Part shown: one piece after another, positions 38,701 through 64,000 of the stretch
How positions within the stretch are numbered: the first letter of the stretch is position 1
Layout: each line of letters opens with the position of its first letter
Origin: a virus
Strand: one strand, 5' to 3'
DNA length: 64,000 bases
IMG/VR virus record: IMGVR_UViG_3300017728_000002
Span: 21,482-85,481 of that record
Made by a program: the position numbers and the translations under genes
The notes under the pieces: generated by a model
Told to the model about the DNA's origin: nothing
Databases searched by the model: none
The model's input: only the letters and a program-made list of their open reading frames with translations

Positions 38701-41700
38701 GATCTAGGCCATACCAATCCTACCACAGATGCGGACTTAAAAGGCATGCGTGTAGTAGGAAGTCAGCAAGAAGTTGAAGGTCCTTACACTTGGGACGACT
38801 CTATGGCTACAGATTTAATTGTGGGGATGAATAACCGAGAGTTTGTAGTTGTAAAACTTGGAGAATCCCCAAAAACAGGTCGAGAACTAAATGCTGATGA
38901 TTTTTTAAATGGACTTAAAGAAGGTTTTGAAGTCATAGACATGCATGGTAAAAAGCCTATGACCGTAGGCTTAGATTCAGCCATGGCTTCGTTAATGAAG
39001 CGAGATTTTGAAAAATGGTTAACTACTAAGAAAAATCTTAAAACACGTCCACAATCATTAGTTACTCCAGAATATATCAGTGACTATTCAGACCCAAAGC
39101 GAGAGCTGGCTCGCTACGTAAAAGAGCGTCAAACGAATAGAAAAGACTTTGAAGTTGATCCTGAACTAGAGTTGGCTTATGAATACTATCGATCTAAAGA
39201 GATTGATTCAGATAGGAATAACGAGGCTTTTACGTCTTCTTCTTCTTCTCTGCCTACAGGACCAGAAAAAGTTGTAATGGCCGAGGTCAAGATGAACAGA
39301 AAGTTCTTGCCTAAGCAATACAGGGAAATGAGCATTGAAGAGATTCGTGCCATTGACCCTACACTGCTTGAAGTCATGGTCTATCGTGTTCCTGCAGAAG
39401 GAAAGAATTCTATGGCCATGTGTAAGGTGGTGCAGTTCTTGCCTTCAGGTCAAGACGGCATGGTCATCCCCGCAGCTTTTGTAGCTCAAATGGGATCAGA
39501 CTTTGACATTGACAAGCTCTTTGTGAATTGGAAGAAGGTGCCTAGGGAAGGCAGAGAGCTCAATGCTTACGACCGAGCAGCCAATAAGTTTTTTGATTTA
39601 CAGAAGGATGTGCTGATGAATCCTGAAGTGGTAAAGACAGAAGTGCTTGTACCACAGGGCTTTGAAACCATTAAGGCGTTTCGTACGGAGATGGCTACTG
39701 CCCGCAGGAAAGGAGGGGTTTCAGACATTGATGTCTTTGCTCAAAGACGTCCGTATAGTGCTTTGACTCACTTGCAATTGTGGTCAGACAATGTAGCAGG
39801 CATTGGATTGAAAGGCATTGCTGCCAACAACAATACGTTTTGGATGAAAGTCCAACGTCACAACATGCAAGTGGAAGGAATTCCTATGAAGGATATGCCG
39901 CTTGAGTTGATGCAATGGAATGCAGAAGCAGTAGCTGCTTCTATGGACGGCGCAAAAGACCCTGTCTGGGGTACTATGGGCATTGACCGCAAGAACTTCT
40001 CGTTCTTCATGTACGAGTGTACCATGGGGTACATGCGGGCAATGAAAGAGAACCCAAGTGCAGACAAGGTTAAAACCTTGAATAAAGCTCGAAATGAAGC
40101 ATTAGCGGCAGCAACTGATTCAGATGTTATGCAAGCCATGACCACACGGGTTAATGACTTTAATGCAGAAACAGAAAAGACAGACAACGTAAAACGGTAT
40201 CAGGCTTATTTAAAGCAAGAGGCATACCGGGCGTTGAAAGACTTGACCCGTGTCAGTGAGATGAAAATCAATAAGGAGTTGATTGATCTTCTTGCAGCTA
40301 AAGAGCCCGTTCTAGATAATTATAACCTTACTCTAGACGCTGAAGGCAATATTATTTTAGACAGCGATGGTAACCCAGAGTTGCAAGCGGTAAAAGACGC
40401 CAAAGGAAACACTCTTCCAACCATGGGAAAGGCTTATGTCAATGCTCCTGTCATTAAAGGCGCTTTGGATATTGCCACTGCTTCAGAGTTGCTGATGAGT
40501 GGCGGTATGGGGATTCACTATTACCGCACTGTAGGTCGTTATAACGGCATCAGTTTCCCGCAATACTGCGCGGTTCAAACCTTTAAAGCAGCTGATGAAT
40601 TTGTAGAAGGCAAGCGCGCAGAGGTCATGGGTGAGAGAAGCGTCAGTGAGCGTTTTAGAGAAGTGGACCTAGAGGATGTTCAGTCTTGGAACATGCGTCA
40701 TTGGATCGTTTGGTTGAATACATCTGACGAAGGCCGAGCAATTCGAGACGACAAAGACAACGCGTTCTTGCGTAAGATGCTCTTGCATATCACGGTAGGC
40801 CGAGCCTACGAAGTAAACTACAATCGTTACGATCGGATAACGCCAATCCAGCTTAACGACCCTATCAAAGCAGAAGAGTTTCAAAAGGCTTGGGAAAACA
40901 CATTGACTCCGCCTTTATCCTATGAAGGGTCTGTTCACTACCCTTCTGAGTTTGCCAAAGCCTTAGTTCGCTACGAAGCTGCACGCAGTGGGTGGAGACG
41001 AGGGTCTTCAACCTTCACGCAGTTCTTGCCTACGGAGATTGTAAAAAATGTAAGCGGAGAGGACGCTACATCCTTGCAGATTGCAGCTCATGCTGTGTTG
41101 GATTCTAGGGTAGAGTCCGGTACAGAAAAAATGGCTTTGCTCAGCAACAGGCCTATGCGCTATGGTAAGCACACTTACGTGACTTTGCCTGGCGAAAACA
41201 GGCGGACAAAAGTGACCACTCCTGTTTTGATGCTTGGGTTCAGAGGCATGTCATCTATAGATGCTATTGCAGGTGAGTTGCAGGTCAACCAATCCACTGT
41301 AGAGGAAGAGATAGCTGAGTACAAAGCCAAGCAAAAGAAGAGTCAAAGCCTTGAAGCATTTGGAGATATTGCTTCATCTACTACTACTTCTGAGCGCATT
41401 GCTATGCTTCAGAGTCGGTTTGCTTCTTATGGTATTAAGGTAAGAGTGGAGTTTGATTCCACTTTAGAAGGTGCCGGTGATGTGCAGTACGATAAGGAGT
41501 CTGGGGTCATTCGACTCCACCCTGATCGCATGAAAAGCGATACGGTCTTGCACGAGTTTGGTCACATCTACATTGAGATGTTGGGGTTTGAAAACCCTGC
41601 TGTTCAGCAAGCCATTGAAGAGTTGCGCAACACTGAGCTGTATCGAGAGGTAGCAGAGATGTATCCACACTTAAGTCAAAGAGACTTAGATATGGAGGTT

Positions 41701-44700
41701 TTGGCTACAGCTATAGGTCTTGAAGGAGACGCCATCTATGACAAGGCTAAGAACCCCAACAAGCTTCGTACCCTGATCAATAAACTCTTTAGGGCTTTAG
41801 GTAAGTTGTTTGGTATCCAGCCTAACACCGCTCGGGAGTTGGCACGTAAGATGATTGAAGGGTCTGATGTTAGGACCAACAACTTAAAGTCATTCCGTGC
41901 AGAGCAACGATTGAAGAAAGGTTTGGATGCTCAGACCCTAATGATTGAGGTAGCTGATGAGATTATGAACCGCATCGATCATATGCGGCGATTGGGTGCC
42001 ACTACCGAGGAGCAGCAAGTGCTTCTAGACAGCTTGCAAGAGGACTCTAGTATGTTTAGAGAAGTAGCAGAAAGTGGAGCTACAGCTGTATTGGATTCTC
42101 TGGTGGTTGCAATGTCAGACTACTTGCAAAAAACTACTGAGTTTATCTCTCATGCGGAAACATATGTAGACACTTCTTCAGCAGCCGGGCTTAAAAAGCA
42201 AGACACTGAATTGTTGAACCAGGCGTATCAGCTGAGTCAAGTGCTGAATACGTTTTCTCAAACGTTTGCCAGCTTTGATAAAGACACTGTAGATGTAGAT
42301 TTTGATCAGCAAGAGCGGTTTGCAACAACCAACAAAGCTTTTGTGGAAATGGCAGGTCCTGTTCAGGTTATGCAAACCCGCTTGACCAGCTTGGTACGTA
42401 AGATGCTGAACAAAAAGCTGGTGGCTAATTCTAGTAACCCTAGGATCAAAGAAGCCATGGAAGCAGGGTTGGACATTTTCTCTTTGGCTCAAACTGAATT
42501 TGGCGACATCACTACCGATACTTCTAAAGGAGAAGTGCAGTTTATGGGATTGCTCGATCAAGACTCTAATGCTGTGCTTACTCTGTTTGGTAAGACTTTG
42601 CGTGATGTAGTCAACACCGAAGAGCTGCAGAGTAAGCAAGACATTCAAAAGCTTTACTCTATCCTAGATGACTTTGAAAGTCAGGGAGGATCTATCGAAT
42701 CTCTTTTAGATGAAGATGGTCAAAGCTTTGTGAGTCCTTATCGAGATGCATTTTATTCAGCTCAATCCAAAGCAACCAACCGTCGCAAGTGGAGAGCAAT
42801 GAACATGGAGCAGAAGTATGTAGAGTCTTACTACCTCGAGCATGTTTACTCTAAAGACCACAAAGACATCAAAGTACTCAAAGAAGAGATTGCTAGGTAT
42901 GAAGAGGGAGCCAGGGCAGGCACCCTTACAGAAGCAGATAAGCTTCATTTAGACCAGCTTCAAGAAGACCTGGCAACCAGAGAGCAATCTCTAGAGAGTT
43001 TTAAAAAATACCATGAACCTGTCTGGGACTTAGAGAAGTTTGAAAAGGACAAAGCAGATGCTGAATCGCAAGGGCCAGATGTAGCAGCAGCTTGGAAAGC
43101 AGCGTATGTGCACTCCAGCGGCAAGCCTAAGTTCAACAGTCCTTACTACAAGACTTCTAAGGTGAAAGACAAGTTCTTGAATCCTAAATGGACAGGGACA
43201 GACATGCCTAAAGCCAAATGGTTAAACCCGAAAGCAAAGGAGTTATCTCCTCTGCAGCAAGAGACCATTGAAGCTTTGAAAAATCTGATGAAAAATGCTG
43301 TAGGGTTTGAAGATCACCGGATGTTCAACGAGAGTTTGATTCCTCAGATTGAAAACCCAGAATCTAAAAGCCTAACAGAAGTATTGCGTGACATGCCACG
43401 TGAAGCCCTAGAGACAAACAAAGACACGGCTCGCATGGGCACAGATAGTGAAGGGCGGAAGATCTTCTTGCGTGGAGGGTTGAAGCACAGCAGGCGAAGT
43501 GATGGGTTAGTTTCTACAGACTTAAGAAAAACCATCGCTCAGTTTGTTGTAGAGGCTAGGGCTGCTAAAGCTGCCAATAACATTGAGACGTTCTCTTTGA
43601 TGACTCGCGATGAGCTTGGTCGTATGGAGCTAACTGCTCGAAAAGGTTGGAGTATGGGTAGGGTAGATGGTAAGCGCTTGAACTTAAACGACAACAAACG
43701 CGCTGGAACCATCAAAGGAGACCGGAGTAACTCTATGGATGTAATAGAGCATGTCTTAGAAGGTTACTTAGGGCAAGGGTGGCAAACTACAGGTAAGTAT
43801 GACTCTCAAGCCGCTCTTCTGCAGAGCTATATTTCGTTCCAAGGTATTGGCTTTAACCCTTCGGCATGGGTCAACAACATCATGTATGGTGAGCTTATGC
43901 AAATCTTGGATGCCGTTGGAGGAGATATGTATACAAGTGAGAGCTTGAACTTGGCTAAGAAACAGGTATACGCAGGCATTAGAGACCTGGCGTTAGCTCG
44001 CGACAAAGGCACCAAGCCAAAAACAAGGTTGGCTGCGGTCATGCACTTCTTTGATGCAACCATGGATCAAAGGGAATTGCCTGAGACCAGCGAGTTGCTA
44101 GACAAGTTCTATAACCTGGCATACATCGGTCAAAGCTTTGGTGAGCTGTTGATGCAAAGTCAAGTTGTCCTTGCTATGATGTATGATACAAAAGTGAAGC
44201 TGGACACTGGAGAGACTGTTAACCTCTATGAAGCCTTGACTTGGGACGGAGAAGCCCGAGGTATTGGGTTTAAGGCAGGTAAAGTCATTCGCAAAGACGG
44301 CACTCTGGTTGATTTAGACATAAACTACCTCGGCTCCTTTAAGACCAAAGCTGTAAATGTGCTGCAACGCATTCATGGATCTTATAACGCAGAAGATATG
44401 GGTCGGTTCCATCGCATTGCTGTAGGTAGGCTCGTGCTTCAATTCCGTAAATGGATGCCTCAAGCTTTGAAAAAGCGTTTTGGAGCTGATCGGTTTAGTG
44501 AAGTACGTGAAACTGAGGAGATAGGATATTACCGTGCGCTTTGGGACAAGATTATTGTTCCTGGGGTGATGGGCAACGTAGACGACGCAAAGCGGTTTAG
44601 GTTCTATGCTACCTATCAAAGCCAACCACCGCATGTCCAGAAGGCCATCAAACGAGCTGCCATTGAGATGGGGCTGGGAGTGTCAAGTGCAATCCTTAGT

Positions 44701-45093
44701 TACGTTCTTGCGTCATTGATTGAAGTAGATTCAGATGAAGAAGACGAGTTCTTCCTGTTGAATGACGCGTACTACAAAGCCAAGCTCTTGTACCACACAG
44801 AACGCTTAAACCAAGAGCTTGTGGCATATACTCCTTGGGGTATGTACGATACGGCTTTGAGGATTGGTCAAGACCCTGCAGCTGCTTCTAGACAGCTTAA
44901 GACGATGTTCAAGTTTATGCAACAAGCCGTCTATGGATTGGCTCCTGGCGTAGAGTTGGAGCGCTTTAAAGGCGGACGCAATTATGGTGATCTGAAGATC
45001 AGTACGTATGCTTTACAGCTATTGCCGCTTCTTAAGCAAGCTCTTCGTGAGATGAATACCATCTCAAGCCATACGATCTATAAGTTGAGTTAA
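29746..45093 (+). CDS. Giant virion RNA polymerase polyprotein with two zincin motifs (5,115 aa)
   Basis: One uninterrupted 15.3-kb frame. Around 3150-3350 is a double-psi beta-barrel polymerase region: AEVKMNRKFLPKQY, then YRVPAEGKNSMAMCKVVQFL, and the metal-binding loop GSD3252-F-D3254-I-D3256-KLF. That DxDxD loop is the hallmark of the QDE-1/crAss-like single-chain RNA polymerases that are packaged, ejected and transcribe early genes. Two zinc metallopeptidase motifs flank it: H1805-EAL-H1809 with E1841/E1842 downstream, and H3936-EFG-H3940 with E3984 downstream. A SAP/HeH-like helix-extension-helix lies at ~937-972, preceded by acidic low-complexity linkers (~760-800, ~905-935). The N-terminal 450 residues contain Gly/Ala/Lys-rich hydrophobic segments; the C-terminus has a membrane-like segment (AAIEMGLGVSSAILSYVLA). 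Known crAss-like polymerases are often ~2,000 aa, so this looks like a fusion of several cargo proteins. It may be cleaved; unproven. Confidence 0.85.
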   Translation: MSENNTTPDSSFESRQEDAGLTPKSNIRFGLKQDPLYQEQGMFQSRMTENPQVKGIDVQKYAPYTGYITHLGTRDAMRARGQSVAEKWGNGIYQAVVGEVVGGSLQGLGALGMLVDSEKNFLYELGEAINEGARDATPIYKHSDKAFAFNDAGWWASNLGNILSTVSMLVPGMAVSKGASLAARGLVAAGKAGKAVKAGKTIGKAGKVAGKAAGEAADVTADAMKASVRAQRLEKTMQTVAGGYGMRHAENIREGVDVAVQAEEEFMQDGRALEDFKGTVAYDQYLKDHDQKAPMNKQELASYVGGQAAVRSYQFNMLNLVFDVFQMGTIFKPFKAVTRGQGVGKVGAAAAGKAAAGLDKGTRATRALEKSKGFLTEVGKAATEGIEESINFMGSGEGMARAEYLRGVETGSFGERLDDYFHDSHLYESAFWGFLGGGVFQGLGSIMGKKQDAAMTSLLRQQETLVRESAELAKAEKSGDTEKANQIRARVMADLGIRASQSGRVDQLLDQLNSDDFMKQLQEQGLLGEKSIEEARNELIEGVLKQEKDYKKIAEVAEEYGLSSQEMFVLLKQQNSYDAGLKSIAEKLEAIDDASITEDQKLAAKFQLRDSLVELQKKVKKEKGKDSKTPFGAELKALQEELKDKEKPAEFEKLLTYEAFNQARLLAEQTRLKRKRAELTTEQSLAYTRTTVNAYNKNQEKVIAASFKKRVAEEENLDILNKLLEQAKRNKAKDQEILISERIAELKKTNADKTDADKAQEENEEGGTPVPKDDSTEENEPPTENEPSKENEPPEENDPDVSDVLPEGVVLEDDDEVDYTLAYREPYADGSPFDFGSLTNQERRFLDALDNLDTAETVEKAQALVSFVRNYILKQQEEGKPIKRKFDGKVVDQAIAYLAEAEKTPPAAPQDSAPQDSAPQDPTSDPPTDLPTDDLENSTVKALKAIARQEGLTGYSKLNKAELVAAIRAHREQATLFPENKVTPPTDESPAEKKRRESQQNRVEKHSKELYEALESYAEAVANRDALQDSKNADSKEAVAAELAADKAAMKVLNALNNLTSHSLLSQQNKVESYISSDLREYMELATETLEQDGYTSDHVKPGQVYDETLSVDVEIVNDETLEPGVELIQKINQPEIRKKGKVIQRGQVVVVQGPLLSKPVIEPETVEAPEGQIKMIMNDLMEAFLQQMQIRTSVTMPTTRVREHALIEGTRLTLEGPVAEQYEALMFALTNPSASVTIRISDNQVEVKNPIYKTSVNNKLGVKSLTRKTVGSKTYTYENEEDNSPDYEVVVEYQGKTVVIGNVPRVGTLLKQASRLQNQYRNQPTGDDADANPYWRNAYADANLNALQAIRHADAIALFRKYLDSQDSGSISFTGLSEQIALDGSFKRGSLLRPSDQMDTLNMHPEVTDAIDEHGLCVMMTDPSSGEPYLLNLKTGLKTAVPYQDGVMAMNAQAGTYAFKNQSNKISSTGAVFIPIRDPNSPLKPMWVRMPDMTLKEANRTDFVSNILYGPGTSEQKFELLRSVMSTPPPSVTSESQIMEGFTGAAFISGPSNGQPRLVILKDRKIVMDFNPDGTPRTEIQKAVLEQLKFRLDAKSPELASYEKEGKRDEETRQTLKSLAQSIKQNGRMPIAPVVKKDSAGNDVIIGYHHPVPAARFERDREAQSQNQLFNPEAQSTMLPIAIDMARLQAQNPEAPASPDTKPTDTSDPKKSNEKGGESTDFWNESDDGAMFMTVEKALASDFYAMSTSKDQLEAELWLAKNLPHVPFRRVKGLIERGGVTAYGIWEQGMIRVSDISVVGTEYHEALHAVMDTYLSPKRRAKIMAEARAKYGDLGPIKLEEKIAEAFREYMLTEGKSMTEKSALRRFFSEILALVQAMFQGQYRTRQLMQNINRGRYAYKPSQRSKNFLTKFSKVPAFDAAEMSELEQVMPFLVNYILKDIREAFVGNNPKDVLMRRYGREEDAQVLEGLLQTIAEIKDLSVESDEDGNTIEIQREKKKLIAEGIIRVIFDSRGLFQYMIKSSSRASEERKLEIYDRLGHNEEVLVEHFSTNPRVQRMIMQAIAIDASTGTTDIEQNFSASIAEINPMDKVPASIKNLISRTIYIPGDRSGRLIETILGNQGTEAALEAIAEVSGTDVDKSDAFSRFGLPRFLQFETVYPFLLNQLSSLPSYEAMETRMLELSVYNPSLASIVLALRKDAEPGTLTELQKQFYVGMKRASSEELNVSLETQYDERVERKFQVPVVKDEFIYEPAWHLVQRNKEAVYNAILQFTPAEKEKVLNALSALAKQRNETPEVRVKTIKILVRTFQKLEFSTMDPSALANAMHVMSNNELGGLADMLERLILAGNEAQTSAILREVVRIMKLADADMGAVQSSYMSNLKTKYAHVNPSYLTEELDRLKSAFKEEYLKERFAHNAHLEESMWHIMLDEESLTYRRFGQLGPHAYTDMDVAQRLEYDLLALFRMGKNAQGRQIRVTGYSAIPTPSDATGSFMVSNDFVHYPENVKNRILASIYDAETRKDVTHMSLPIDRSKVDINSIESKAEYMRALLEQEAAALLSIPEFKEVIDKLQVPLGYGPVEGRSRDEGRVTMVNSYVAATYVSNWNVSNWMGGTIDHFGGDVTKYQKRFKQIMSPGQTSADKGTFRNVTIEDPVVFEDWATEVEYSDNGKPVKNADGTYRRIPSAIDRADAQSYVTLDFWERMLSSHGELTDYKKAVIEKARKGEALSVSERSVFAPYKPFYFGWVQGQPHQLKNSVIPLLPPVKGQAPISVELEAMRKWMVHPDNKVDQITLKSAHKVGVTSKATSMFQDGKFKAPEPGYTQYDLPMEFHRNQVSITEHNNHNGTVGLGTQTGPIIMSNLRNYEGLGEVHIQKLLKTEQRMMNMKLKELKGKLFVQGTELGKNGEEDVSKRTVPDVARVRQYVLDNVRDDVHPAVLEILSSPLASAGRISPLVAFAVNQTLAAAVQKDFKKQKVTGGMQVQISDLGHTNPTTDADLKGMRVVGSQQEVEGPYTWDDSMATDLIVGMNNREFVVVKLGESPKTGRELNADDFLNGLKEGFEVIDMHGKKPMTVGLDSAMASLMKRDFEKWLTTKKNLKTRPQSLVTPEYISDYSDPKRELARYVKERQTNRKDFEVDPELELAYEYYRSKEIDSDRNNEAFTSSSSSLPTGPEKVVMAEVKMNRKFLPKQYREMSIEEIRAIDPTLLEVMVYRVPAEGKNSMAMCKVVQFLPSGQDGMVIPAAFVAQMGSDFDIDKLFVNWKKVPREGRELNAYDRAANKFFDLQKDVLMNPEVVKTEVLVPQGFETIKAFRTEMATARRKGGVSDIDVFAQRRPYSALTHLQLWSDNVAGIGLKGIAANNNTFWMKVQRHNMQVEGIPMKDMPLELMQWNAEAVAASMDGAKDPVWGTMGIDRKNFSFFMYECTMGYMRAMKENPSADKVKTLNKARNEALAAATDSDVMQAMTTRVNDFNAETEKTDNVKRYQAYLKQEAYRALKDLTRVSEMKINKELIDLLAAKEPVLDNYNLTLDAEGNIILDSDGNPELQAVKDAKGNTLPTMGKAYVNAPVIKGALDIATASELLMSGGMGIHYYRTVGRYNGISFPQYCAVQTFKAADEFVEGKRAEVMGERSVSERFREVDLEDVQSWNMRHWIVWLNTSDEGRAIRDDKDNAFLRKMLLHITVGRAYEVNYNRYDRITPIQLNDPIKAEEFQKAWENTLTPPLSYEGSVHYPSEFAKALVRYEAARSGWRRGSSTFTQFLPTEIVKNVSGEDATSLQIAAHAVLDSRVESGTEKMALLSNRPMRYGKHTYVTLPGENRRTKVTTPVLMLGFRGMSSIDAIAGELQVNQSTVEEEIAEYKAKQKKSQSLEAFGDIASSTTTSERIAMLQSRFASYGIKVRVEFDSTLEGAGDVQYDKESGVIRLHPDRMKSDTVLHEFGHIYIEMLGFENPAVQQAIEELRNTELYREVAEMYPHLSQRDLDMEVLATAIGLEGDAIYDKAKNPNKLRTLINKLFRALGKLFGIQPNTARELARKMIEGSDVRTNNLKSFRAEQRLKKGLDAQTLMIEVADEIMNRIDHMRRLGATTEEQQVLLDSLQEDSSMFREVAESGATAVLDSLVVAMSDYLQKTTEFISHAETYVDTSSAAGLKKQDTELLNQAYQLSQVLNTFSQTFASFDKDTVDVDFDQQERFATTNKAFVEMAGPVQVMQTRLTSLVRKMLNKKLVANSSNPRIKEAMEAGLDIFSLAQTEFGDITTDTSKGEVQFMGLLDQDSNAVLTLFGKTLRDVVNTEELQSKQDIQKLYSILDDFESQGGSIESLLDEDGQSFVSPYRDAFYSAQSKATNRRKWRAMNMEQKYVESYYLEHVYSKDHKDIKVLKEEIARYEEGARAGTLTEADKLHLDQLQEDLATREQSLESFKKYHEPVWDLEKFEKDKADAESQGPDVAAAWKAAYVHSSGKPKFNSPYYKTSKVKDKFLNPKWTGTDMPKAKWLNPKAKELSPLQQETIEALKNLMKNAVGFEDHRMFNESLIPQIENPESKSLTEVLRDMPREALETNKDTARMGTDSEGRKIFLRGGLKHSRRSDGLVSTDLRKTIAQFVVEARAAKAANNIETFSLMTRDELGRMELTARKGWSMGRVDGKRLNLNDNKRAGTIKGDRSNSMDVIEHVLEGYLGQGWQTTGKYDSQAALLQSYISFQGIGFNPSAWVNNIMYGELMQILDAVGGDMYTSESLNLAKKQVYAGIRDLALARDKGTKPKTRLAAVMHFFDATMDQRELPETSELLDKFYNLAYIGQSFGELLMQSQVVLAMMYDTKVKLDTGETVNLYEALTWDGEARGIGFKAGKVIRKDGTLVDLDINYLGSFKTKAVNVLQRIHGSYNAEDMGRFHRIAVGRLVLQFRKWMPQALKKRFGADRFSEVRETEEIGYYRALWDKIIVPGVMGNVDDAKRFRFYATYQSQPPHVQKAIKRAAIEMGLGVSSAILSYVLASLIEVDSDEEDEFFLLNDAYYKAKLLYHTERLNQELVAYTPWGMYDTALRIGQDPAAASRQLKTMFKFMQQAVYGLAPGVELERFKGGRNYGDLKISTYALQLLPLLKQALREMNTISSHTIYKLS
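32074..32138 (+). repeat. ENEPP-type acidic repeats in the giant protein
   Basis: The coding sequence repeats a 15-18-base unit encoding E-ENEPP-TENEP-SKENEPP-EEN. It forms a disordered acidic linker between helical and downstream domains. Confidence 0.7.
32467..32511 (+). repeat. Three tandem 15-bp units GCACCACAAGATTCT
   Basis: Three 15-base units (last with one C for T change) encode APQDS-APQDS-APQDP immediately before the SAP/HeH-like segment of the giant protein. Likely slippage in a flexible linker. Confidence 0.85.
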
Positions 45094-54188: not shown

Positions 54189-54860
54189 TTAGTCGATGTA
54201 GATATTAGACCATTGGAATGAAAGGGCTTGGTCAGCCAGATGAGGGCAACGACTGCCCGCTTGGGTATTGTCACTACCCGTTTTGAACGTGATCATGAGT
54301 TCATCAGATTCGCGGTAAACGAATCCAATGGCATCTGCAGCACTCATAAGCTCATTCTTAAGCTTACCGGTAAGGTTTAGCTCGTTGATGTCGATCACTT
54401 TGTTGTGATCTTCGTCCACTACAGTACTTCGCTTGGTGTGTCCAACGATGATGATACCCTTAGTGGCAAGGGCTGCCAGCTTTTGCACGGCGTTAACTAC
54501 TGCTTCACGAACTAAGGCAAAACCTTTGCCAAATTCCATGTCGCCAATAGTGGCTACTTCATGCTGCTTGCAGACGTATCGTTCTATCCAGGCAGCCAAA
54601 TTGTCTACCGTGTCTAAAGCGATGTAATCATACTTGGTGTCGGACTGACTTAAACTTTGATTTAGGAGTTTGTACTCGTTAAGATTGTCGACATACACTT
54701 TCATGGCGTCAACATATTCAGTACCTCGTTCTGTGTCAATGATTAAGCAGTTGTCCAGCTTAGCGATCGTCGATGTTTTACCGGCTTTTGGGGAGCCATA
54801 GAGAAGTAAAAATCGAGGGTCTTTTCTTGTAGCAGTTGTTTTGCTAGTGGGTAAATCCAT
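54189..54860 (-). CDS. Sak4-like RecA-fold ATPase (223 aa)
   Basis: P-loop G22-SPKAGKT29 preceded by RFLLLYG and a Walker-B-like aspartate in KYDYIALDTVD (~residues 75-84) define a RecA-type AAA core. The short length (223 aa), the aspartate-rich CLIIDTERGTEYVDAM and the lack of extra domains resemble the Sak4 phage recombinases, which anneal or pair single-stranded DNA with SSB. It lies beside the SSB-like gene and follows a CTCTCTA element. It could alternatively be a helicase-loading ATPase. Confidence 0.7.
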   Translation of the reverse strand: MDLPTSKTTATRKDPRFLLLYGSPKAGKTSTIAKLDNCLIIDTERGTEYVDAMKVYVDNLNEYKLLNQSLSQSDTKYDYIALDTVDNLAAWIERYVCKQHEVATIGDMEFGKGFALVREAVVNAVQKLAALATKGIIIVGHTKRSTVVDEDHNKVIDINELNLTGKLKNELMSAADAIGFVYRESDELMITFKTGSDNTQAGSRCPHLADQALSFQWSNIYID

Positions 54861-54868
54861 TTTAAATT

Positions 54869-54878
54869 TTAGAGAGTT
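54869..54878 (-). promoter_or_regulatory. AACTCTCTAA element before the Sak4-like gene
   Basis: Minus-strand AACTCTCTAA, overlapping the stop of the DnaB-like gene, eight bases before the ATG at 54860. Confidence 0.55.
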
Positions 54879-55860
54879 ATGATAGTATTCGGGAGTCTGT
54901 CCATTCTGTGATACGCCCTTGATCCAAATCAGAAATCAGACGAACGTACCCTTGGGTTCCATGTCTGTTCTTGAGGATGTGAAGGGCAATCAAGTTCTTG
55001 CCTTGTTCTGTTATTGTAGGGACGTGATTCTTACCATAGACTTCTAGTCCCAACAATGCCGGCTGGTGTACCACAAGGCACACATCGCAAGCATGGTAGA
55101 GTTGTTTGGAACCATGGATGTCTGTTTTGGTAGGGAAATGCAATGAAGCAGCCCCTGGGTCACGTCGTATAGCTGATTCTATTTTGTCATTGAGTTGGCA
55201 TAGCAGGATGTTCATGGTATTGAACTCCTTGCGGATCTTGATGAACATTTTACCAAGCTCAGCTAACGTCTGTATCTCGTTTTCACCTGGCATAGGCTGA
55301 ACCAGCAAAGCGTGGTCTAGCGTAACAACCAAGTTGTCGTCTGGAAACTTCTCACGCATCTTACAGATGGTGTTCAGTATGTCTTGCCTTGTACCTGGAG
55401 TTTCGCAGAAGTAGATAGGCTCTTCTCGAACTTTGTCTAGTTGCTGCTTGACTTTTTGGTATTGGTCAGCGTCTAAAGGACGATCTGCAGAAAGCAAATC
55501 CCGATATGACAGCTGTATGGCTGTAGACAATCTGCGCAAAATCTCTGTAGAAGCACTCATCTCAAAACAGAAGTGTAGAATTTTACACTTGTGGTTTTGA
55601 ATTCGCTCATTGATGAAATTCTGTATCAAAATATTCAGCATGTAGCTCTTACCATGACCTGAAGCACCACACAGCATATAGGTCTGCCCAAACTCAAAAC
55701 CTCCCAAGAGGTATCGGTTGAGCAGATCCCATTCTGTGCGCACCATAACGCGGTCTCCAGTCATAGACGCGTAAATCTGTTGATTGGCGTCTTTGATGGA
55801 AACTGCCATCTTCCGAATGGGAAGACTATTGGAGCTCTCGGTCTGCAGGTAAGATGACAT
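54877..55860 (-). CDS. DnaB-like replicative helicase (327 aa)
   Basis: The RecA-like core has Walker A GASGHGKS (about residues 65-72), a Walker B stretch NLVVTLDHALLV and the conserved C-terminal segment KNRHGTQGYVRLISD. This is the helicase domain of the DnaB family; the usual N-terminal primase-interaction domain is missing, the first ~40 residues being a short linker (MSSYLQTESSN). It would unwind DNA at the phage fork, with the primase nearby. Start at the ATG at 55860 inside the upstream gene's end; a GTG at 55875 or the ATG at 55809 are alternatives. Confidence 0.75.
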   Translation of the reverse strand: MSSYLQTESSNSLPIRKMAVSIKDANQQIYASMTGDRVMVRTEWDLLNRYLLGGFEFGQTYMLCGASGHGKSYMLNILIQNFINERIQNHKCKILHFCFEMSASTEILRRLSTAIQLSYRDLLSADRPLDADQYQKVKQQLDKVREEPIYFCETPGTRQDILNTICKMREKFPDDNLVVTLDHALLVQPMPGENEIQTLAELGKMFIKIRKEFNTMNILLCQLNDKIESAIRRDPGAASLHFPTKTDIHGSKQLYHACDVCLVVHQPALLGLEVYGKNHVPTITEQGKNLIALHILKNRHGTQGYVRLISDLDQGRITEWTDSRILS

Positions 55861-56389
55861 TGCCTGTTGTATCACGCATTTCTTCTAGGGCTTCCCATTG
55901 ACGGGATGCAAACCACTTTTCGATTCCCATAGAAATCTTGTGGTTCTTGATTGCCCAATGAAGCTGGTCCATGACACGTCGGTGCTGACCTCGCTTGACT
56001 ACTTTTTGATAGTACTGTCTCTCTAATTCATCTAAATCACAACTTCTTGCCGCTACTTGCTTGCCGTGTATGAACAACCACTTGGGGTATGCGCTAATAA
56101 ATTCTTCAGCACTTGCCCAATCGCAGTTCTTCTCAAACATCTCTGTTCCTTGCTCTGTCAACTCAAATTGGTCTAGAGCAAATACCCCAGACTCATTCCA
56201 GTTGTAGATGTAGTTGCGGTCTATCAAATCATGGACTTCTTCTTTGGTCAAGACTTTACCGTTTACGTCAATCAACGAGTAGATAAGCTTGAACTTCTTT
56301 TCATACATAATTGCCAGGAACGCATACTGGCTGGGGGTCATCTTTGTTTTTTGTAAGAACTTGACCCAACGTTCTAAATCAATGATCAT
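55826..56389 (-). CDS. Hypothetical protein between helicases (187 aa)
   Basis: Overlaps the SF2 helicase stop (ATGA) and the DnaB start by about 35 bases, so it is translationally coupled. It is helical with charged segments and Trp residues (LERWVKFLQKTKMTPSQYAF, EEVHDLIDRNYIYNWNESGV), the latter with a winged-helix look. A helicase-loader or regulator role is conceivable because it sits between two helicases, but no motif proves it. Confidence 0.5.
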   Translation of the reverse strand: MIIDLERWVKFLQKTKMTPSQYAFLAIMYEKKFKLIYSLIDVNGKVLTKEEVHDLIDRNYIYNWNESGVFALDQFELTEQGTEMFEKNCDWASAEEFISAYPKWLFIHGKQVAARSCDLDELERQYYQKVVKRGQHRRVMDQLHWAIKNHKISMGIEKWFASRQWEALEEMRDTTGNVILPADRELQ

Positions 56390-57630
56390 CTGAATAGATC
56401 GATTGTAGCCTTGTCTGTGCCAGTACCTGTTATTTGATAAAGCAAGTCACTGACATCTTGAAGGCCGATGATGTTAACACTTGACTTCTGTCGATCTCTA
56501 AGCCACTTTTCGTCTTGAGTGTTCTTGACATACAGATTGATGATGTAGCCTGTCTTGCCTTCTTGAAAGCGTATGGCACGTCCTGTACGTTGTATGTTCT
56601 GTCGTTGACTAGCAGTTCCACTGCAGATCAATGCTACTTCTACTCCGGGAACATCAAAGCCTTCGTCTAACGCTTTGGCTGTGTTGATTACCCGTATATC
56701 TGATTTGTCGTCTTGAAAGTCTTGTAAAGCTTGTGCTCGTTTGTATTTGGCCATCTTACTGTTGTAGCTAGTAGACCAAGGAGCGGTCACTTTAGTTAAG
56801 TTTTCTGCAAAGTCAATACTCTCACTAAAAGTAATTGTCTTCATGTCTAAGGATTGAATAATCCGTGAGGCTGACTCAATCTTAGAGGGGTAAGTATACA
56901 GAAACTTCTTTCGCATAGCAAGGTTCTTATTGAAGTTTAGAGCCCAAATGTGAACTTGTTTCTCTGTTACATGAAATCGAGAAGCAACGCTTCTACGCGC
57001 AGCGTCACTCTTTAAACAATGCATAGCGTGCTTAAAATCATGTCCAAACTTGGCGAAGTAGTGATTGAAATCATCACTGAATTGTTTGTACTGCGCTCTC
57101 TCTTGATCAGACATGTATAACGGCACGTTGTAGGTTTTGAAATCAGACACATATCCGTCTTTCAAGGCTTCAGTAAGAGAAACCTTGTCAATGACGGGAG
57201 CATGTTGCCGAATCAAATAGTCTTGACCATCCTTGCGGTCAAGGGTAGCGGTGAGTCCTAAGACCCACTGATAAGTAATCACTGAAAACACCTTGCTAAA
57301 CACAGCACTTGCGTAGTTGTGGATCTCATCTAAAATGAGAAGGTCACACGTATGCTTGCGTTTGACACCAGAATTAACCACCATCACTTTGACTCCTGAG
57401 AGCATGTGTTGGGTGACTTGTTCTTCCCACTGGGTCTTAAGGTGTTTGGTAGGAACTACGACAAGCGTAGTCTTTTCAGGATACTGTTCGTTTGTTTTTT
57501 GAATAGCAATGACTGCAGTGTACGTTTTACCAAAACCTGTACAGGCTTCTAGCGTACCTCTGCAGCCATTGCTTACCCACTTGCGCAAGATGCTTTTCTG
57601 TCTTGCAAGTTTTTTGCTGTTTACGTCCAT
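56386..57630 (-). CDS. SF2 DEAD/DEAH-type helicase (414 aa)
   Basis: Motif I T31-GFGKT36, motif II D101-EIH104, motif III TAT (127-129) and motif VI QRTGRAIRFQEGK (near residue 360) are all present, the set of a DNA/RNA helicase related to the UvsW/RecG/type-III-restriction branch. It may unwind branched DNA or help initiate replication. The sequence between the lobes (~170-260) includes a charged insertion. It starts after a 68-base gap from the secreted-protein gene, with no CTCTCTA element visible there. Confidence 0.85.
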   Translation of the reverse strand: MDVNSKKLARQKSILRKWVSNGCRGTLEACTGFGKTYTAVIAIQKTNEQYPEKTTLVVVPTKHLKTQWEEQVTQHMLSGVKVMVVNSGVKRKHTCDLLILDEIHNYASAVFSKVFSVITYQWVLGLTATLDRKDGQDYLIRQHAPVIDKVSLTEALKDGYVSDFKTYNVPLYMSDQERAQYKQFSDDFNHYFAKFGHDFKHAMHCLKSDAARRSVASRFHVTEKQVHIWALNFNKNLAMRKKFLYTYPSKIESASRIIQSLDMKTITFSESIDFAENLTKVTAPWSTSYNSKMAKYKRAQALQDFQDDKSDIRVINTAKALDEGFDVPGVEVALICSGTASQRQNIQRTGRAIRFQEGKTGYIINLYVKNTQDEKWLRDRQKSSVNIIGLQDVSDLLYQITGTGTDKATIDLFR

Positions 57631-57698: not shown

Positions 57699-60600
57699 TT
57701 ATTGCGACACAAATGTTGTCGGGAAAAAGGATGGAGCGGGTACAACCTTAAACGCATCGGGAATGCTGCTTTGTCCGGGGTTGTATCGTCCTGTACTATT
57801 GGCGGGTGCAGTTGCTGTATTAAGCCACTGCGTATCAATCTTCTGATTGCTGTCCATAAAGGGCAACGTGATGTTCTTAAAGTCTCCAGTACTGAACCTG
57901 GTATCTGTACGCATAGCACCGGGAGTGCGGAAGCTGATAAACTCTTGGTGATTCAAGCAGTTTGCCCAGTTTGCAATGGCTTCATCAAAGTAGGGAGCAT
58001 CACCATCAATGTCGAAGTACTCGTGGAACAAGCGACTGGGTTGGTACTCTTCCTTCTGCGCATCGTACTTGGGCAAAACGTTGGTTACTGTATGCAAAGC
58101 ATCTGTTCCAGCTCTATAGTATGCTGCAGGGTTGGCTACAGGTTTTGCCTGATCGTCTCCCAAAGAAGTCCAATGCAAGAAGCACCCTTCTAGAATTTCA
58201 AGGTCAGTGGATGTCCAATATCCATCCATGTCCATGTCATAGACCAGAGGTCCGTAGGATTGCTCAGGCAGGCTGAACAGATTAGACTGGGTAAAGAAGG
58301 TGTTTGCAGCAAACGTAATGGCATCTTGAGTGCTTGTGAAAGCAGCATCACTGCTGTTGATCATAGCAATAGCACGTTGTCCTGTATGAGCAGCAAAAAA
58401 TGGAGTGATGATGTGCGTCATCCAGTCTGCATACGTTCCTATTTGACACGGCATAAACTCTCGACCTACTGTGAGTGTGTTTGACACATTCGCATCTAGG
58501 TTGTACTGAGGTCCAAAAGAGTTGTCAAAGTGGTGACGGCTGTCAGCAGAAGCAGCCAAACCAAACTTGGGAGAAACGCTGTGAAGCTTAAACCTGAAGT
58601 ACTCACGCAAAGTCATCTGGTCTACACCTGTAATGACACCTTGATGCAGTTGTGAATCAAAAGTTCCATTAAAATAGCCCCAATCACTTCGGGCTACATC
58701 TGCAGGGGTAGAAGTCTCTGAGTAGATGTCAAAATAGTCCCGGATGCCTCCGATGTACTTCCTTCGAATGCTTTGTTGAGTTGTAGCCGATCCTCGACTT
58801 GTGTACCCAGACGAACTCTTTTGGCTTGTGATGTATGCCAAAGAGATGTTTTTGCGAGGAAATACAGTGCTGGGGTTGGCTACACCGGATAGATACCTTG
58901 TTGTGGCTTGATCCCATAGGGGGTCAGCGTAAACGCCATCTTTAAAGTGATGCAGGTTATGAATAGCTGGACCGGCACCAAATGCATCAATTAGACCTAC
59001 GGTTACATTGGCGTTGTCTGTAGCATGCAAACTCAATACTGGAGCATTGATGTTGCTGTAAGCGCCGTAATAACACTGGCCTAGGGTAGGAGATGTGTTT
59101 TCGCTTGGTCCGTTGTAGATCTCGTCTAGGTCCGTGTAGAATTGAATCCAAGGCACTTTAGGAGTAAAAGTGTTCGTGTGTTCGTAGATAACGTAAGCCA
59201 GTTCAGACCCTTCATCTAGATCCAACCGTGTTCCATTTGGAGCAACGTATCCATCTCCTGCCAAATAGGAAGCAGAGGTAACAGGTCCATAGTTACTCAA
59301 GTCTGCAATGTCAATGTAGCTCAATCCTTTAGTAGTTATGAGCATTACAGCATCGTGCGCCAAAGCTGTACGAGGCAATTGAAGCTTGTTCCTGCCTTTG
59401 GCTAGAGTGGTCATTGTAGGGTCAATGATGGTCATCTCTTGACCATAAGCAGTCAAAGTGTATTCATTAGGATCCCACTGAATACCGGCGTTGGTAAACA
59501 AGGTGAGCTTGTCTTGAAAAGCTTGTTCAATCGCGCTGACTTCATTGGGATCAATGACCATACCACCTCCGTCAATAAAGTTGCCTGGAGCAGACCAATC
59601 GCCAGAGTTTTCTCCGACGTTGTATCCGTAAGTCTGAAGGAAAATGATGAAGTCAATTACGTTGACGCATCCATCATTGTTGATGTCCCCAATTGCAAAA
59701 TTGGAACAACCATCACCTTCACAACATCCTTGGGCTTGAAGCATGTTGATTAAGTCAACAGCTCCTACAACTCCGTCACCGTTAAAGTCTCCTTGCAGGT
59801 TGGTCATGTACACCAATCCTTCCAGTGGAAAGTTAAACTCACTGTCACGCATCCAAAGGGTGTCTCCAACACCTAAGTACTTAATGGTGTTTAGGGTTCC
59901 GCTGGTGTCATAAAGCTCAATGGCAATCCTAGGAAACGGTTGATACCCTAAGTCGTCATAAAATGTGCTGCCTGTAGCTTGAATCTTTAAAGGTTCAATT
60001 ACCCAGGCTCCATTGATTGGAGGAGGAGGGAAAAAGGCATGAATGGGCTTGTGGTTGTGAGGCGCATATTCTTTGATGACATGTGCAGCTCTGAATTGAG
60101 CGCTATCAGTGTACAAAAAGGGTACTCCTGGGAATACGGACGCAGCTTCTTCTCCAACCGTGTGAGTGCCATCTAGCGCGTTGTCGTCAAACTTGTGCTC
60201 AAAGAAGACAAACGGCATCATGGTACTGTCGTTCTCATAAGCATAGGTTACTACAGAGGTAGACGTTGCGTCGTCTGTAAACAAAGTCTTTGATGCAGAT
60301 GTGCGACCACCTGTATCGATACCGTACGACTCAATGTCATTGAGCAGTAGTCCGTAGGGGCCATAGTCTCCAACAAATATTTGCCCTAGGTTTTCCATAG
60401 GAAAGTCATGGTCATAAACTCCGTGAGAGGGTAGAATCTCGACAAAGTCGCTGGAGTTGGTTGCGTTTCGAATCCAAAAAGCTCCCCCAGGCTGCACATA
60501 GCGACCTAAAGGCATGTACTTGTTGGGGTTGATGCTTCCGCTATTCAAGTAATTGTAGACAGGTCCGTCATTGGCATCAATGAATCCGTCTGCGTAGTCT

Positions 60601-63242
60601 TCAGCTATTTCTAGAGCCAAGTTGCTCAAGTTTGAAGCTTCGCTGGAATTGTACATGTCATAGAGCAGGTTCAAGACGTAGTCCATTTCTGAACTGATGA
60701 TTTCGTCTCCAAACCGGAAGTACTTGCGCCTCCAAAACTCTTTGGTGCTGGGGATGTAATCGGGGTAATTGCCGTACCACTCTGGGTATGTTGTAGTGGT
60801 GAAGTTTGCAGCAAGATCGTAGTCATATCCAGAAACGTTGTACCACGCAAATTCTAGCAGTTCTGCTTCTGGGTGGTCTTCAAAATAATTAGCTGCGACT
60901 GCATTCAAGTCTAGGTACCCCATTAAAGGGTTAGAAATCATTTCCCAGCAGCTGATTTGAGCTGAATAAACAATGTCCTCGTAATTGTCTAGGTAAGCAT
61001 CTCCAAACAAGATGTCAGCATCAGATGAAGAGCCGTATCCAACCAGTTCAGGAATCGTTGTTCCATCTACGTAGTTGTAGCATAGTGCTGTTTCGCTTTC
61101 AAAGCCTAAGTCAATGTAGTATTGAGAAGCTGTGTCTAAACACTCTCCCCAAGCATTGCCTTCAAACAAAGAGCCGTCAGGAGCATAATGGTATACAAAA
61201 GACTCACTTGTAGGTACTTTGACTAAGAGCTGTCCAGGCTCACTTTGTCCTGGGGGCAGGTTGGGGATCAAGGGTTGATCTATGAAAGGCCTGTGGTAGG
61301 GTTGTTCGTTGTACGCTTGTTCAGAGTTAATCCAAGGAGTTCCTACGTATTCAACAACGCGTTCAGTGAGGTCACCACCAGTCATAGTTTCCCAGTGCCC
61401 AAATGGGAAAGGTTGAGGAGTATCATAATCTGGTACCGACCACCTTGCTAAAGGAGCGCTCACGTTGGTTCCACCTCTAGGTTTGTCGGGATATGTCGGA
61501 GGGTAATCGTCTATGAAGGGGATGTATAGAGGATTTGTGGTTTCACTCAACAAAGGGTACGGTGTCAAAGGTGCTACGTTTACTGTATCGTAGTCAAACA
61601 ATGTGATCCAGTCTTGACTGCCTGAAGTATCGGCCAAAGACAAGTGTTGAGGGTGTTCCCAAGACCGATTTCCGCTGGCTCCACGTGTGTTAAGGTTGTC
61701 CCAGCTTAAATACGTGGAAAACGAATTAGGCCACATCCCAAAATGAGCCCAACCATTGATGATGTTTTCGCCTTGGTGATACCACCTACCATAGCTTGTA
61801 GAGTCGGTAGGATCAGCATTTGTAGTAAGATAGCTGCCCCCACCATTTAGTTCAGGCAAGAAGTAGTTAATAGAAGCTACAATCTGCAAGTCGTGTACTG
61901 GCACAACGCCGTTAAAGAAGGTTGTGTCTTGAGAATTCTGATTTACTACAAATACATCGAAATACGCTTGAAGGCTGTTGCCTACATAGTAAGCAGTATC
62001 TAAAGTCATAGAAGATGATCCTCCCCAAATTGAGTCTGTAGTAATGTCAAGTCCGCTCGCAGTAATGCCCAGTGTAGAATCTAAATAATTGTACATAGCC
62101 ATAGAAGGATATACTGAAACGATTGCACCCTGTGAAACACCCAACTCAGCTAAGCTTTCTTGCGTTTGACCTGCTAAAGCATCTTCTGAGTTATCCCCAC
62201 CCGCCATGTCATACCAAACATCAATTTTTTTTGATCCGCCTTCTACTAACATTTTATCTAACGGTTGCCAAACAGATTTAAGATGAACATCGCCTGTCAT
62301 TTTACCGCGTCGAACGCCTTTAACGGGGATTCCAGTTAAATGGTAACCTGAGATTCTGTACCGTACGGGTACTTGTACGTTGTCGTTGGCCAGGCTAGCC
62401 ATAACTACGTTTGCCATGTTCAACGTATCATCGTTGAGTTGATACTGAGTAAATGCAGTTTGCACGCTATCAGGCAAGTATGGGACTGTGAAGGCGACGA
62501 TCCAAGGCAAATAGTATTCTGACAGTTCAGATCCCCATTGGGCTCCTTCAAAATCTTCTAAAAGATCAGTCCAGTAACCTGTAAGAACCAGTCCGTTGTG
62601 AGAGTCTACAGCTCTGTTTCGGATGGTCTGATATCGCACTCTACCTACAGCAGTTCCTGTGTTTTCAAACGTGGATGGGAGGTGTGTGACATAGTCTAGC
62701 TCAAAGATGACGTTGTCGTTGTCTGTCCTAAAGTATCCGTTGTTGTGCAACTCCTCTTCAATAACCAGCGGTGCAGGCCCTTCGTGGATAAGCTCACATC
62801 CAAAAGGAACGTAAAGCCTCTTGATCCGGATGGTATCGGTATTGGAAATGGTCAAAGAATTGTAGGAATTTCCGCTTAGGTGCTTGCCTACATAAACTTC
62901 TTCGATACTTCGTGTGCCTGTTCCGGTGTGTAACAGTCTTTGAGGCGCGTTAGGTGTGCCTCCAAGACAAATCCTCAAGTTTGGATGACTCCATCCTGTA
63001 ATGTTCAGATCTGCAGGCCCTAAAGAACTTTCGTAATGCCGTGTTCCTGGAACAACAAACTCTTGCTGGCCTGTTTCATAATTCAATTGCTGAGTAGCGA
63101 ACGTAAATGAAGCAGGTGTACTAAGTACAAAAGATTCAGTAAGCGATTGAGGCAAAAAGGGAAAAGGCGGAGTAAAAGAGGTTTGACTCTGCGCAAAAAA
63201 CGAAGCAGCCATTAAAACTGCAGTGATGAAATATCGTAGCAT
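57699..63242 (-). CDS. Secreted multi-domain protein with dockerin repeats (1,847 aa)
   Basis: A Sec-type signal peptide is clear at the N-terminus: MLRYFITAVLMAASFFAQSQ then TSF, cleavage near residue 20. Residues ~1151-1205 carry two dockerin-like calcium-binding repeats (GDFNGDGVVGAVDLINMLQ and GDINNDGCVNVIDFIIFLQT), and a third related loop, DMDMDGYWTSTDLE, lies at ~1669-1683. The long first ~1,140 residues are Tyr/Asp/Asn-rich and beta-like, without a recognised enzyme motif. No type IX secretion C-terminal domain was seen. Such proteins occur as cell-surface proteins in Flavobacteriales; it was likely acquired from the host and is exported after infection. It is the first long gene on this strand downstream of a related partial gene. 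Confidence 0.7.
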   Translation of the reverse strand: MLRYFITAVLMAASFFAQSQTSFTPPFPFLPQSLTESFVLSTPASFTFATQQLNYETGQQEFVVPGTRHYESSLGPADLNITGWSHPNLRICLGGTPNAPQRLLHTGTGTRSIEEVYVGKHLSGNSYNSLTISNTDTIRIKRLYVPFGCELIHEGPAPLVIEEELHNNGYFRTDNDNVIFELDYVTHLPSTFENTGTAVGRVRYQTIRNRAVDSHNGLVLTGYWTDLLEDFEGAQWGSELSEYYLPWIVAFTVPYLPDSVQTAFTQYQLNDDTLNMANVVMASLANDNVQVPVRYRISGYHLTGIPVKGVRRGKMTGDVHLKSVWQPLDKMLVEGGSKKIDVWYDMAGGDNSEDALAGQTQESLAELGVSQGAIVSVYPSMAMYNYLDSTLGITASGLDITTDSIWGGSSSMTLDTAYYVGNSLQAYFDVFVVNQNSQDTTFFNGVVPVHDLQIVASINYFLPELNGGGSYLTTNADPTDSTSYGRWYHQGENIINGWAHFGMWPNSFSTYLSWDNLNTRGASGNRSWEHPQHLSLADTSGSQDWITLFDYDTVNVAPLTPYPLLSETTNPLYIPFIDDYPPTYPDKPRGGTNVSAPLARWSVPDYDTPQPFPFGHWETMTGGDLTERVVEYVGTPWINSEQAYNEQPYHRPFIDQPLIPNLPPGQSEPGQLLVKVPTSESFVYHYAPDGSLFEGNAWGECLDTASQYYIDLGFESETALCYNYVDGTTIPELVGYGSSSDADILFGDAYLDNYEDIVYSAQISCWEMISNPLMGYLDLNAVAANYFEDHPEAELLEFAWYNVSGYDYDLAANFTTTTYPEWYGNYPDYIPSTKEFWRRKYFRFGDEIISSEMDYVLNLLYDMYNSSEASNLSNLALEIAEDYADGFIDANDGPVYNYLNSGSINPNKYMPLGRYVQPGGAFWIRNATNSSDFVEILPSHGVYDHDFPMENLGQIFVGDYGPYGLLLNDIESYGIDTGGRTSASKTLFTDDATSTSVVTYAYENDSTMMPFVFFEHKFDDNALDGTHTVGEEAASVFPGVPFLYTDSAQFRAAHVIKEYAPHNHKPIHAFFPPPPINGAWVIEPLKIQATGSTFYDDLGYQPFPRIAIELYDTSGTLNTIKYLGVGDTLWMRDSEFNFPLEGLVYMTNLQGDFNGDGVVGAVDLINMLQAQGCCEGDGCSNFAIGDINNDGCVNVIDFIIFLQTYGYNVGENSGDWSAPGNFIDGGGMVIDPNEVSAIEQAFQDKLTLFTNAGIQWDPNEYTLTAYGQEMTIIDPTMTTLAKGRNKLQLPRTALAHDAVMLITTKGLSYIDIADLSNYGPVTSASYLAGDGYVAPNGTRLDLDEGSELAYVIYEHTNTFTPKVPWIQFYTDLDEIYNGPSENTSPTLGQCYYGAYSNINAPVLSLHATDNANVTVGLIDAFGAGPAIHNLHHFKDGVYADPLWDQATTRYLSGVANPSTVFPRKNISLAYITSQKSSSGYTSRGSATTQQSIRRKYIGGIRDYFDIYSETSTPADVARSDWGYFNGTFDSQLHQGVITGVDQMTLREYFRFKLHSVSPKFGLAASADSRHHFDNSFGPQYNLDANVSNTLTVGREFMPCQIGTYADWMTHIITPFFAAHTGQRAIAMINSSDAAFTSTQDAITFAANTFFTQSNLFSLPEQSYGPLVYDMDMDGYWTSTDLEILEGCFLHWTSLGDDQAKPVANPAAYYRAGTDALHTVTNVLPKYDAQKEEYQPSRLFHEYFDIDGDAPYFDEAIANWANCLNHQEFISFRTPGAMRTDTRFSTGDFKNITLPFMDSNQKIDTQWLNTATAPANSTGRYNPGQSSIPDAFKVVPAPSFFPTTFVSQ

Positions 63243-63247
63243 GGTGA

Positions 63248-64000
63248 TTACTCAAAAACTGGAAGAGCCGTTGTAGGGTTATTAGGGATTTCAGTAGTGC
63301 TGCATCCCAAGCAGAAAAAGTTTGTTGGAGCGCTGTATCCGGGGGGCTGAGTAGCCAGTCCTGTTTTCATGTAGATCCGCAGTCCTGTAGGTATACTAAT
63401 GGGGTCAGTCATAGCTTCAAGCTCGGCGTTGGTAGGCACCCTTGAAGGCAAGTTGATTATGCCGTTATTCAAGGGCTGTCCCCAGTGAATCCATCCAAAC
63501 TCATCAGCTACGAAGACAAACATCTTGTCTCCGTTTACTTGGTCTTGTACAAAGGCTTTCATCTGCTGGTCTGGCCATGCATAGTCAGTCCAAATGTTGT
63601 ACGGGCTATAAGTGCGGGAGACGCCGCTGAGCCTAGCCATGGTTTCTAGCCGTTGCTTTTTAGCTCCAAGCAGTTCAGTGCCTTCAATCAGAATAGGGTC
63701 TGTTCCATTCCAGCAGTCATTGAAATAACTCAGCAACTGTTGTAGATCAGAGATGCCAATGTATCCATCTGCATTAAAGTCATTTACAATAGAGTACCCA
63801 GGGTCATTTTCGCTTAACCCGTAAGAACCTAGAAACAATAGAATGTCAGCGGTTGTGACACACCCGTCTATGTTTAAGTCAGCGGCTAAAAAGCCAGAAT
63901 ACACCGTGAGAACGGCAATCTCTTCTTGGTAACCGCCTGCTTCAAACGCGTATGTAGTAGAAGTTCCACCTGCGTCAATAGAAGTAAGCGCAACGTCATA
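63248..64000 (-). CDS. Secreted-type protein with dockerin repeats, C-terminal part (5' end outside window)
   Basis: The frame is open to the right window edge; the GTG at 63904 is internal. At least 250 residues of the C-terminal end are visible. Two dockerin-like calcium loops, LNIDGCVTTADILLFLGSYG and FNADGYIGISDLQQLLSYF, occur in tandem, as in the neighbouring 1,847-aa protein. The following ~150 residues (MFVFVADEFGWIHWGQPLNN) are strand-like and unrecognised, ending CLGCSTTEIPNN. Five bases separate it from the next gene, so both are co-transcribed. It is probably a paralogous module of the same system. Confidence 0.6.
   Translation of the reverse strand, partial: YDVALTSIDAGGTSTTYAFEAGGYQEEIAVLTVYSGFLAADLNIDGCVTTADILLFLGSYGLSENDPGYSIVNDFNADGYIGISDLQQLLSYFNDCWNGTDPILIEGTELLGAKKQRLETMARLSGVSRTYSPYNIWTDYAWPDQQMKAFVQDQVNGDKMFVFVADEFGWIHWGQPLNNGIINLPSRVPTNAELEAMTDPISIPTGLRIYMKTGLATQPPGYSAPTNFFCLGCSTTEIPNNPTTALPVFE

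Follow-up and report, generated by a model that had tools for sequence, protein, structure and literature searches.

The window, that is, the whole 64,000-nucleotide stretch of DNA analyzed here, comprises the last 64 kb (positions 21482-85481) of an 85,481-bp IMG/VR record and carries on its minus strand two large genes, P1 and P2, with 5 bases between the P1 stop codon and the P2 start (Table 1). The first-pass annotation described P2 as a secreted protein with three dockerin repeats beside a phage helicase. The intact 1,847-aa open reading frame (ORF), its signal-peptide-like start (by heuristic scan), and the helicase (by its match to phrog_16) all stand, and the same scan reveals no lipobox or further transmembrane-like stretch in this acidic protein (D+E 217 vs K+R 89). 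The repeats must be counted differently. Three complete calcium loops are indeed found, at residues 1152, 1186, and 1669 (0.05 expected from shuffles), and the first two make up one type I dockerin: Pfam Dockerin_1 (PF00404) covers residues 1151-1199 at 29.0 bits (curated cut-off 22.9), and the closest solved match is the cellulosomal 2y3n_B (E 4e-6 with the single sequence, 5e-9 with a profile). The third loop stands alone in the C-terminal domain, and the "three dockerin repeats" are therefore one dockerin plus an extra loop. A loose FP(V/T/L)(T/S)-type ending is nearly confined to P1 and P2 among 668 ORFs from 11 phage records, a post hoc and weak observation.

Table 1. Features of the P1-P2 locus and of the surrounding phage genome (plain coordinates are window positions; others carry the prefix L003)
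Feature	Coordinates	Strand	Basis or remark
Flanking DNA helicase, 3' boundary of the P1-P2 module	56386..57630	-	phrog_16, E 1e-43; synteny
P2, predicted exported protein, 1,847 aa	57699..63242	-	Intact ORF, ATG start, no internal stop
P2 conserved C-terminal end, VVPAPSFFPTTFVSQ, family VPSxxYFPVTxxW	57702..57761	-	Alignment
P2 third, lone calcium-type loop, C-terminal domain, residues 1669-1680, DMDMDGYWTSTD	58203..58238	-	Kept in 5/5 P2 sequences
P2 dockerin, residues 1151-1206, loops DFNGDGVVGAVD and DINNDGCVNVID	59625..59792	-	PF00404, E 1.3e-6
P2 signal-peptide-like start, residues 1-20, MLRYFITAVLMAASFFAQSQ	63183..63242	-	Heuristic scan
P1, C-terminal 250 aa in window	63248..64000	-	Full gene crosses the joined record ends to record position 2781 (L003:1-2781, -)
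P1 dockerin, loops DLNIDGCVTTAD and DFNADGYIGISD	63713..63883	-	Both calcium loops complete; orthologues over Pfam cut-off
Conserved hairpin in P1 leader	L003:2786-2842	-	Compensatory changes across three phages
Probable lysis cassette, Amidase_2 endolysin between two lipoprotein-like small ORFs	L003:5395-6501	-	Upstream of polymerase
Tyrosine integrase of the window phage	L003:15717-16787	+	PF00589, E 6e-14

An exact 123-bp repeat is common to both ends of the 85,481-bp record and lies inside the P1 frame, which runs through it as an open 1,136-aa ORF with a signal-peptide-like start of its own. Because of this repeat, and because the P1 frame stays open across the joined ends, the record appears to close into a circle of 85,358 bp. 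The dockerin of the window P1 falls under the Pfam cut-off (E 0.005, 17.3 bits; cut-off 22.9), and those of its orthologues score above it (E 8.6e-8 and 4.1e-6). In a profile comparison, the alignment of P1 with P2 is restricted to the dockerin module, and we thus reject the view that the two are paralogues.

The P1-P2 module in crAss-like phages

The window phage is crAss-like (Crassvirales), with a capsid (PF23898, E 1.6e-80) and a muzzle (PF25731, E 5e-18) found by profile search and the two strand-wise opposed gene blocks of that order. Its capsid is 31-34% identical to crAss-like capsids over 96-99% of the sequence (tblastn), and 80 IMG/VR relatives of this capsid, among the matches listed, are 74-95% identical. 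To judge from the relatives and from protein style, the host is probably an aquatic member of the Bacteroidota. The gene order around the module is DNA_pol_A (family A), two small ORFs, P1, P2, and helicase, which places P1 and P2 on the replication-gene strand, far from the structural genes. Their GC content and codon usage are like those of other genes of this phage, and a recent acquisition is rejected on these grounds. The late strand carries a single 5,115-aa ORF (window 29746-45093, +), the counterparts of which in related phages span 3,800-5,300 aa, several of them cut by contig ends.

The same module occupies the same place in contigs from three other metagenomes, arranged as P1-P2 in G001, as P1-P2a-P2b in G022, where two divergent P2 copies lie in tandem, and as a fragment with the end of P2 followed by the helicase in L087. 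P2 orthologues in the first two of these records are 1,755, 1,834, and ~1,974 aa long, with a C-terminal fragment in the third; P1 orthologues are found in G001 and G022. A signal-peptide-like start is present in every full-length P1 and P2 member (heuristic scan), with sequences that differ among the P2 relatives. The dockerin exceeds the Pfam cut-off in the window P2, both G001 proteins, and P1 and P2b of G022 (24.7-33.4 bits in the relatives), and that of G022 P2a does not. The helicases of the carriers and of the window form one clade (support 99/100), in agreement with the polymerase tree (97/100, for the three carriers with a polymerase). In six more distant records with polymerase and helicase both assembled (G007, G009, G010, G011, L088, and G017/G018, which hardly differ in these genes), nothing but small genes separates the two. 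The simplest history for P1-P2 would be one gain on the branch to the carrier clade.

These findings bear on the first-pass concern that the region is host DNA misassembled onto a phage contig, a possibility to which the P1 gene running off the window end lent some color. The concern is now scarcely credible: the terminal repeat falls in a continuous P1 frame, the order polymerase-P1-P2-helicase is kept in independent metagenome contigs, and codon usage and GC are phage-like. Two scans of bacterial genomes, which were low in sensitivity and relied on few exact peptide patterns, found no relatives of P1 or P2, and the only match in plasmid collections is a dockerin region in Monoglobus. As far as the sequences go, neither of the refuting outcomes named in the first-pass annotation was observed, be it misassembled host DNA or closest relatives all in bacterial chromosomes with a contig break at the junction. 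Because the terminal repeat is in frame, the gene order recurs elsewhere, and the carriers form one clade, the sequence evidence supports P1 and P2 as genuine phage genes.

Predicted export, control, and divergence

Since signal-peptide-like starts are kept in every full-length member, P1 and P2 are likely located in the envelope or outside the cell. A search by eye and with Pfam/NCBIfam models at relaxed thresholds (E up to 10) revealed none of the type IX secretion system (T9SS) sorting domains PF18962, TIGR04183, PF13585, and TIGR04131 in whole P1 and P2 or in their CTD-like pieces, and we reject the two proteins as recognizable T9SS cargo. With no known sorting domain to direct them across the outer membrane, the two proteins could stay periplasmic.

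Further exported proteins in Bacteroidota style are encoded by related phages. G018 harbors a 712-aa T9SS cargo protein (L118 7960-10095, +), the type A sorting domain of which scores above both curated thresholds (PF18962, 27.7 bits; cut-off 27), and G017/G018 a 422-aa protein (L129 (G017) 15752-17017, +) with a CHU_C type B domain (60.7 bits; cut-off 27). In G011 (L112/L113), the gene at 18973-20157 (-), which adjoins the giant late ORF, codes for a 395-aa M43 zinc metalloprotease predicted to be exported; after the protease comes a dockerin-like pair of calcium loops that scores below the Pfam cut-off. In G003 (L105), an 85-aa ORF just before the packaging genes (10373-10627, +) consists of a signal-peptide-like start and one dockerin only. 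Taken together, the T9SS cargo, the metalloprotease, and the stand-alone secreted dockerin suggest a pattern in which this phage group has repeatedly used host secretion. Half dockerins, each with a single calcium loop, occur in structural-region genes on the late strand of G009 (30712-32274), G013 (30288-31793), and G011 (63073-64494 and 54240-55958); such loops are absent from the structural genes of the window phage.

Directly upstream of the P1 start, all three complete copies of the module harbor a stem of ~15-20 pairs (z -6.6 to -8.9), in which 6 of 18 aligned pairs have changed on both sides and still pair, vs 2.2 in shuffles, a count that comes from three sequences only. Across ~745 kb of sequence from this phage group, a covariance model of the hairpin yields no other convincing match, and nothing in Rfam corresponds to it. 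This leader hairpin suggests that P1-P2 has a control element of its own.

P1 and P2 vary strongly against a conserved core, as the cargo of Cryophage does. Identity to relatives is 28-34% for the window P2 and ~25% for the window P1, together 25-34%, vs 65-72% for the helicases; the G001 capsid is 89% identical to that of the window. L087 and L089 are the most closely related pair, and between them the C-terminal part of P2 shows 63% identity, vs 91-95% for the next four genes. For this part of P2, dN/dS is 0.17 vs 0.03-0.07 for neighboring genes, a rough ratio with dS near saturation. On these values, the two proteins diverge fast under purifying selection, and positive selection on P2 is unsupported.

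Proposed function and its alternatives

Export of proteins as large as 1,100-2,000 aa from the infected cell is not commonly attributed to phages. Our preferred reading, to which we give roughly even credence on the basis of sequence features and analogy, is that P1 and P2 are exported proteins, each with its dockerin on a host partner, and alter the surface of the Bacteroidota cell while it is infected or carries the phage. We infer export, a surface location, the dockerin partner, and a role in exclusion along the following lines. P1 and P2 would be expressed from the replication-gene strand as a unit of two genes and taken out of the host cytoplasm by Sec-type signal peptides, to act at the cell envelope or surface. 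There, the calcium-stabilized type I dockerin would most likely attach each protein to an envelope partner encoded by the host, cohesin-like or otherwise, and the fast-diverging regions flanking it may face a changing target. If the variable T9SS cargo of Cryophage is a guide, the likeliest benefit would lie in a changed surface on cells that are infected or carry the phage for long, by way of competition with other phages (superinfection exclusion or receptor masking) or of adhesion/aggregation.

The first-pass annotation also raised a complex between the two dockerin proteins, but dockerins normally bind a cohesin, not one another. It had proposed looking for a cohesin in phage genomes, and this came back empty, with no PF00963 in the 11 phage records searched. 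Profile searches recognize no catalytic, carbohydrate-binding, or adhesin domain in P1 or P2; with neither a catalytic or carbohydrate-binding module nor a phage cohesin, the pair does not resemble cellulosome components. AlphaFold2 models of two pieces reached pLDDT 29 and 30, too low to confirm the long beta-like regions of the first-pass annotation, and Foldseek returned nothing at E<0.001; only P1 residues ~110-220 resemble a beta-solenoid (pLDDT about 45-70).

Great size and fast divergence are typical features of phage fibers, and P1 and P2 might accordingly be virion parts, such as long fibers or head appendages, in which the N-terminal hydrophobic stretch is no signal peptide and the dockerin aids fiber assembly or host binding. 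The half-dockerin loops in structural-region genes of related phages fit such a role. We nonetheless consider it unlikely, as P1 and P2 lie between polymerase and helicase on the replication strand, remote from structural genes, keep a signal-peptide-like start in every full-length member, and, for P2 and the window part of P1, match no PHROG tail or head family. A role in host benefit, in which P1 and P2 would be moron proteins that aid scavenging or attachment during long carriage and have no anti-phage function, is fairly unlikely. Its appeal lies in the tyrosine integrase, the presence of which makes long-term carriage possible for the window phage at least, and in the enzyme-like M43 metalloprotease with a dockerin-like pair in a related phage. 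Against this, no catalytic domain is found in P1 or P2, the ten related records compared have no match to the integrase, and strong divergence points to conflict rather than to a fixed metabolic role.

It is quite improbable that P1 and P2 are periplasmic and never reach the surface, with a role in lysis or an effect on the envelope from within, such as keeping the DNA of rivals out, even though a Sec-type start with no T9SS domain and the lysis-type cassette, an amidase with lipoprotein-like neighbors just upstream of the polymerase, would suit proteins of this kind. P1 and P2 together amount to about 2,980 aa, and dockerin-bearing proteins so large typically belong outside the cell, not in the periplasm. 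A bolder extension of the surface-altering reading, a long shot in our judgment, is a calcium-dependent dockerin assembly on the infected cell, in which P1, P2, and the P2 duplicates would use matching dockerins to bind a scaffold on the host surface and give the cell a new coat, and the half-dockerin loops on predicted virion appendages of related phages would represent the same chemistry on both sides of the phage-host contest. If P1 and P2 do re-coat the host surface, this would help explain both the coexistence of crAss-like phages with their hosts and the exclusion of competitors, and the two genes offer a clear genetic test.

Relation to known phage cargo and dockerins

P1 and P2 have no match among deposited phages. 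In 50,697 deposited phage records, a dockerin query picked out a single weak match, which is unannotated, and our literature search found no paper joining Crassvirales and dockerin. Gene 40 of Vibrio phage VvAW1 is described as dockerin type I-like, from BLAST only, in the portion of that report consulted (PMC3558961); it shares a phage-borne dockerin likeness with P1 and P2, and VvAW1 is an unrelated phage. P1 and P2 resemble the type I dockerins of cellulosomal and non-cellulosomal proteins (PF00404; PDB 2y3n) in having two calcium F-hand loops with matching spacing, whereas their dockerin is internal and phage-borne, with no cohesin, scaffoldin, or catalytic domain found. In crAss-like phages, the crAss-BACON ORFs and the neighboring T9SS sorting-domain proteins (cluster 2) likewise are exported Bacteroidota-type domains, as far as the consulted part of that account goes; they lie beside head genes and contain BACON repeats, with no dockerin reported there, in contrast to the dockerins of P1 and P2 (PMC6949934). 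Closest in kind is Cryophage, also a phage of Bacteroidota, which encodes several highly variable secreted T9SS cargo proteins with the same proposed role (PMC7468147). In Cryophage, enzymes and a PA14 protein bear T9SS sorting domains of type A (PMC7468147), whereas P1 and P2 lack a recognized T9SS domain, harbor dockerins, and are part of a replication module. Secreted cargo encoded by phages is already known.
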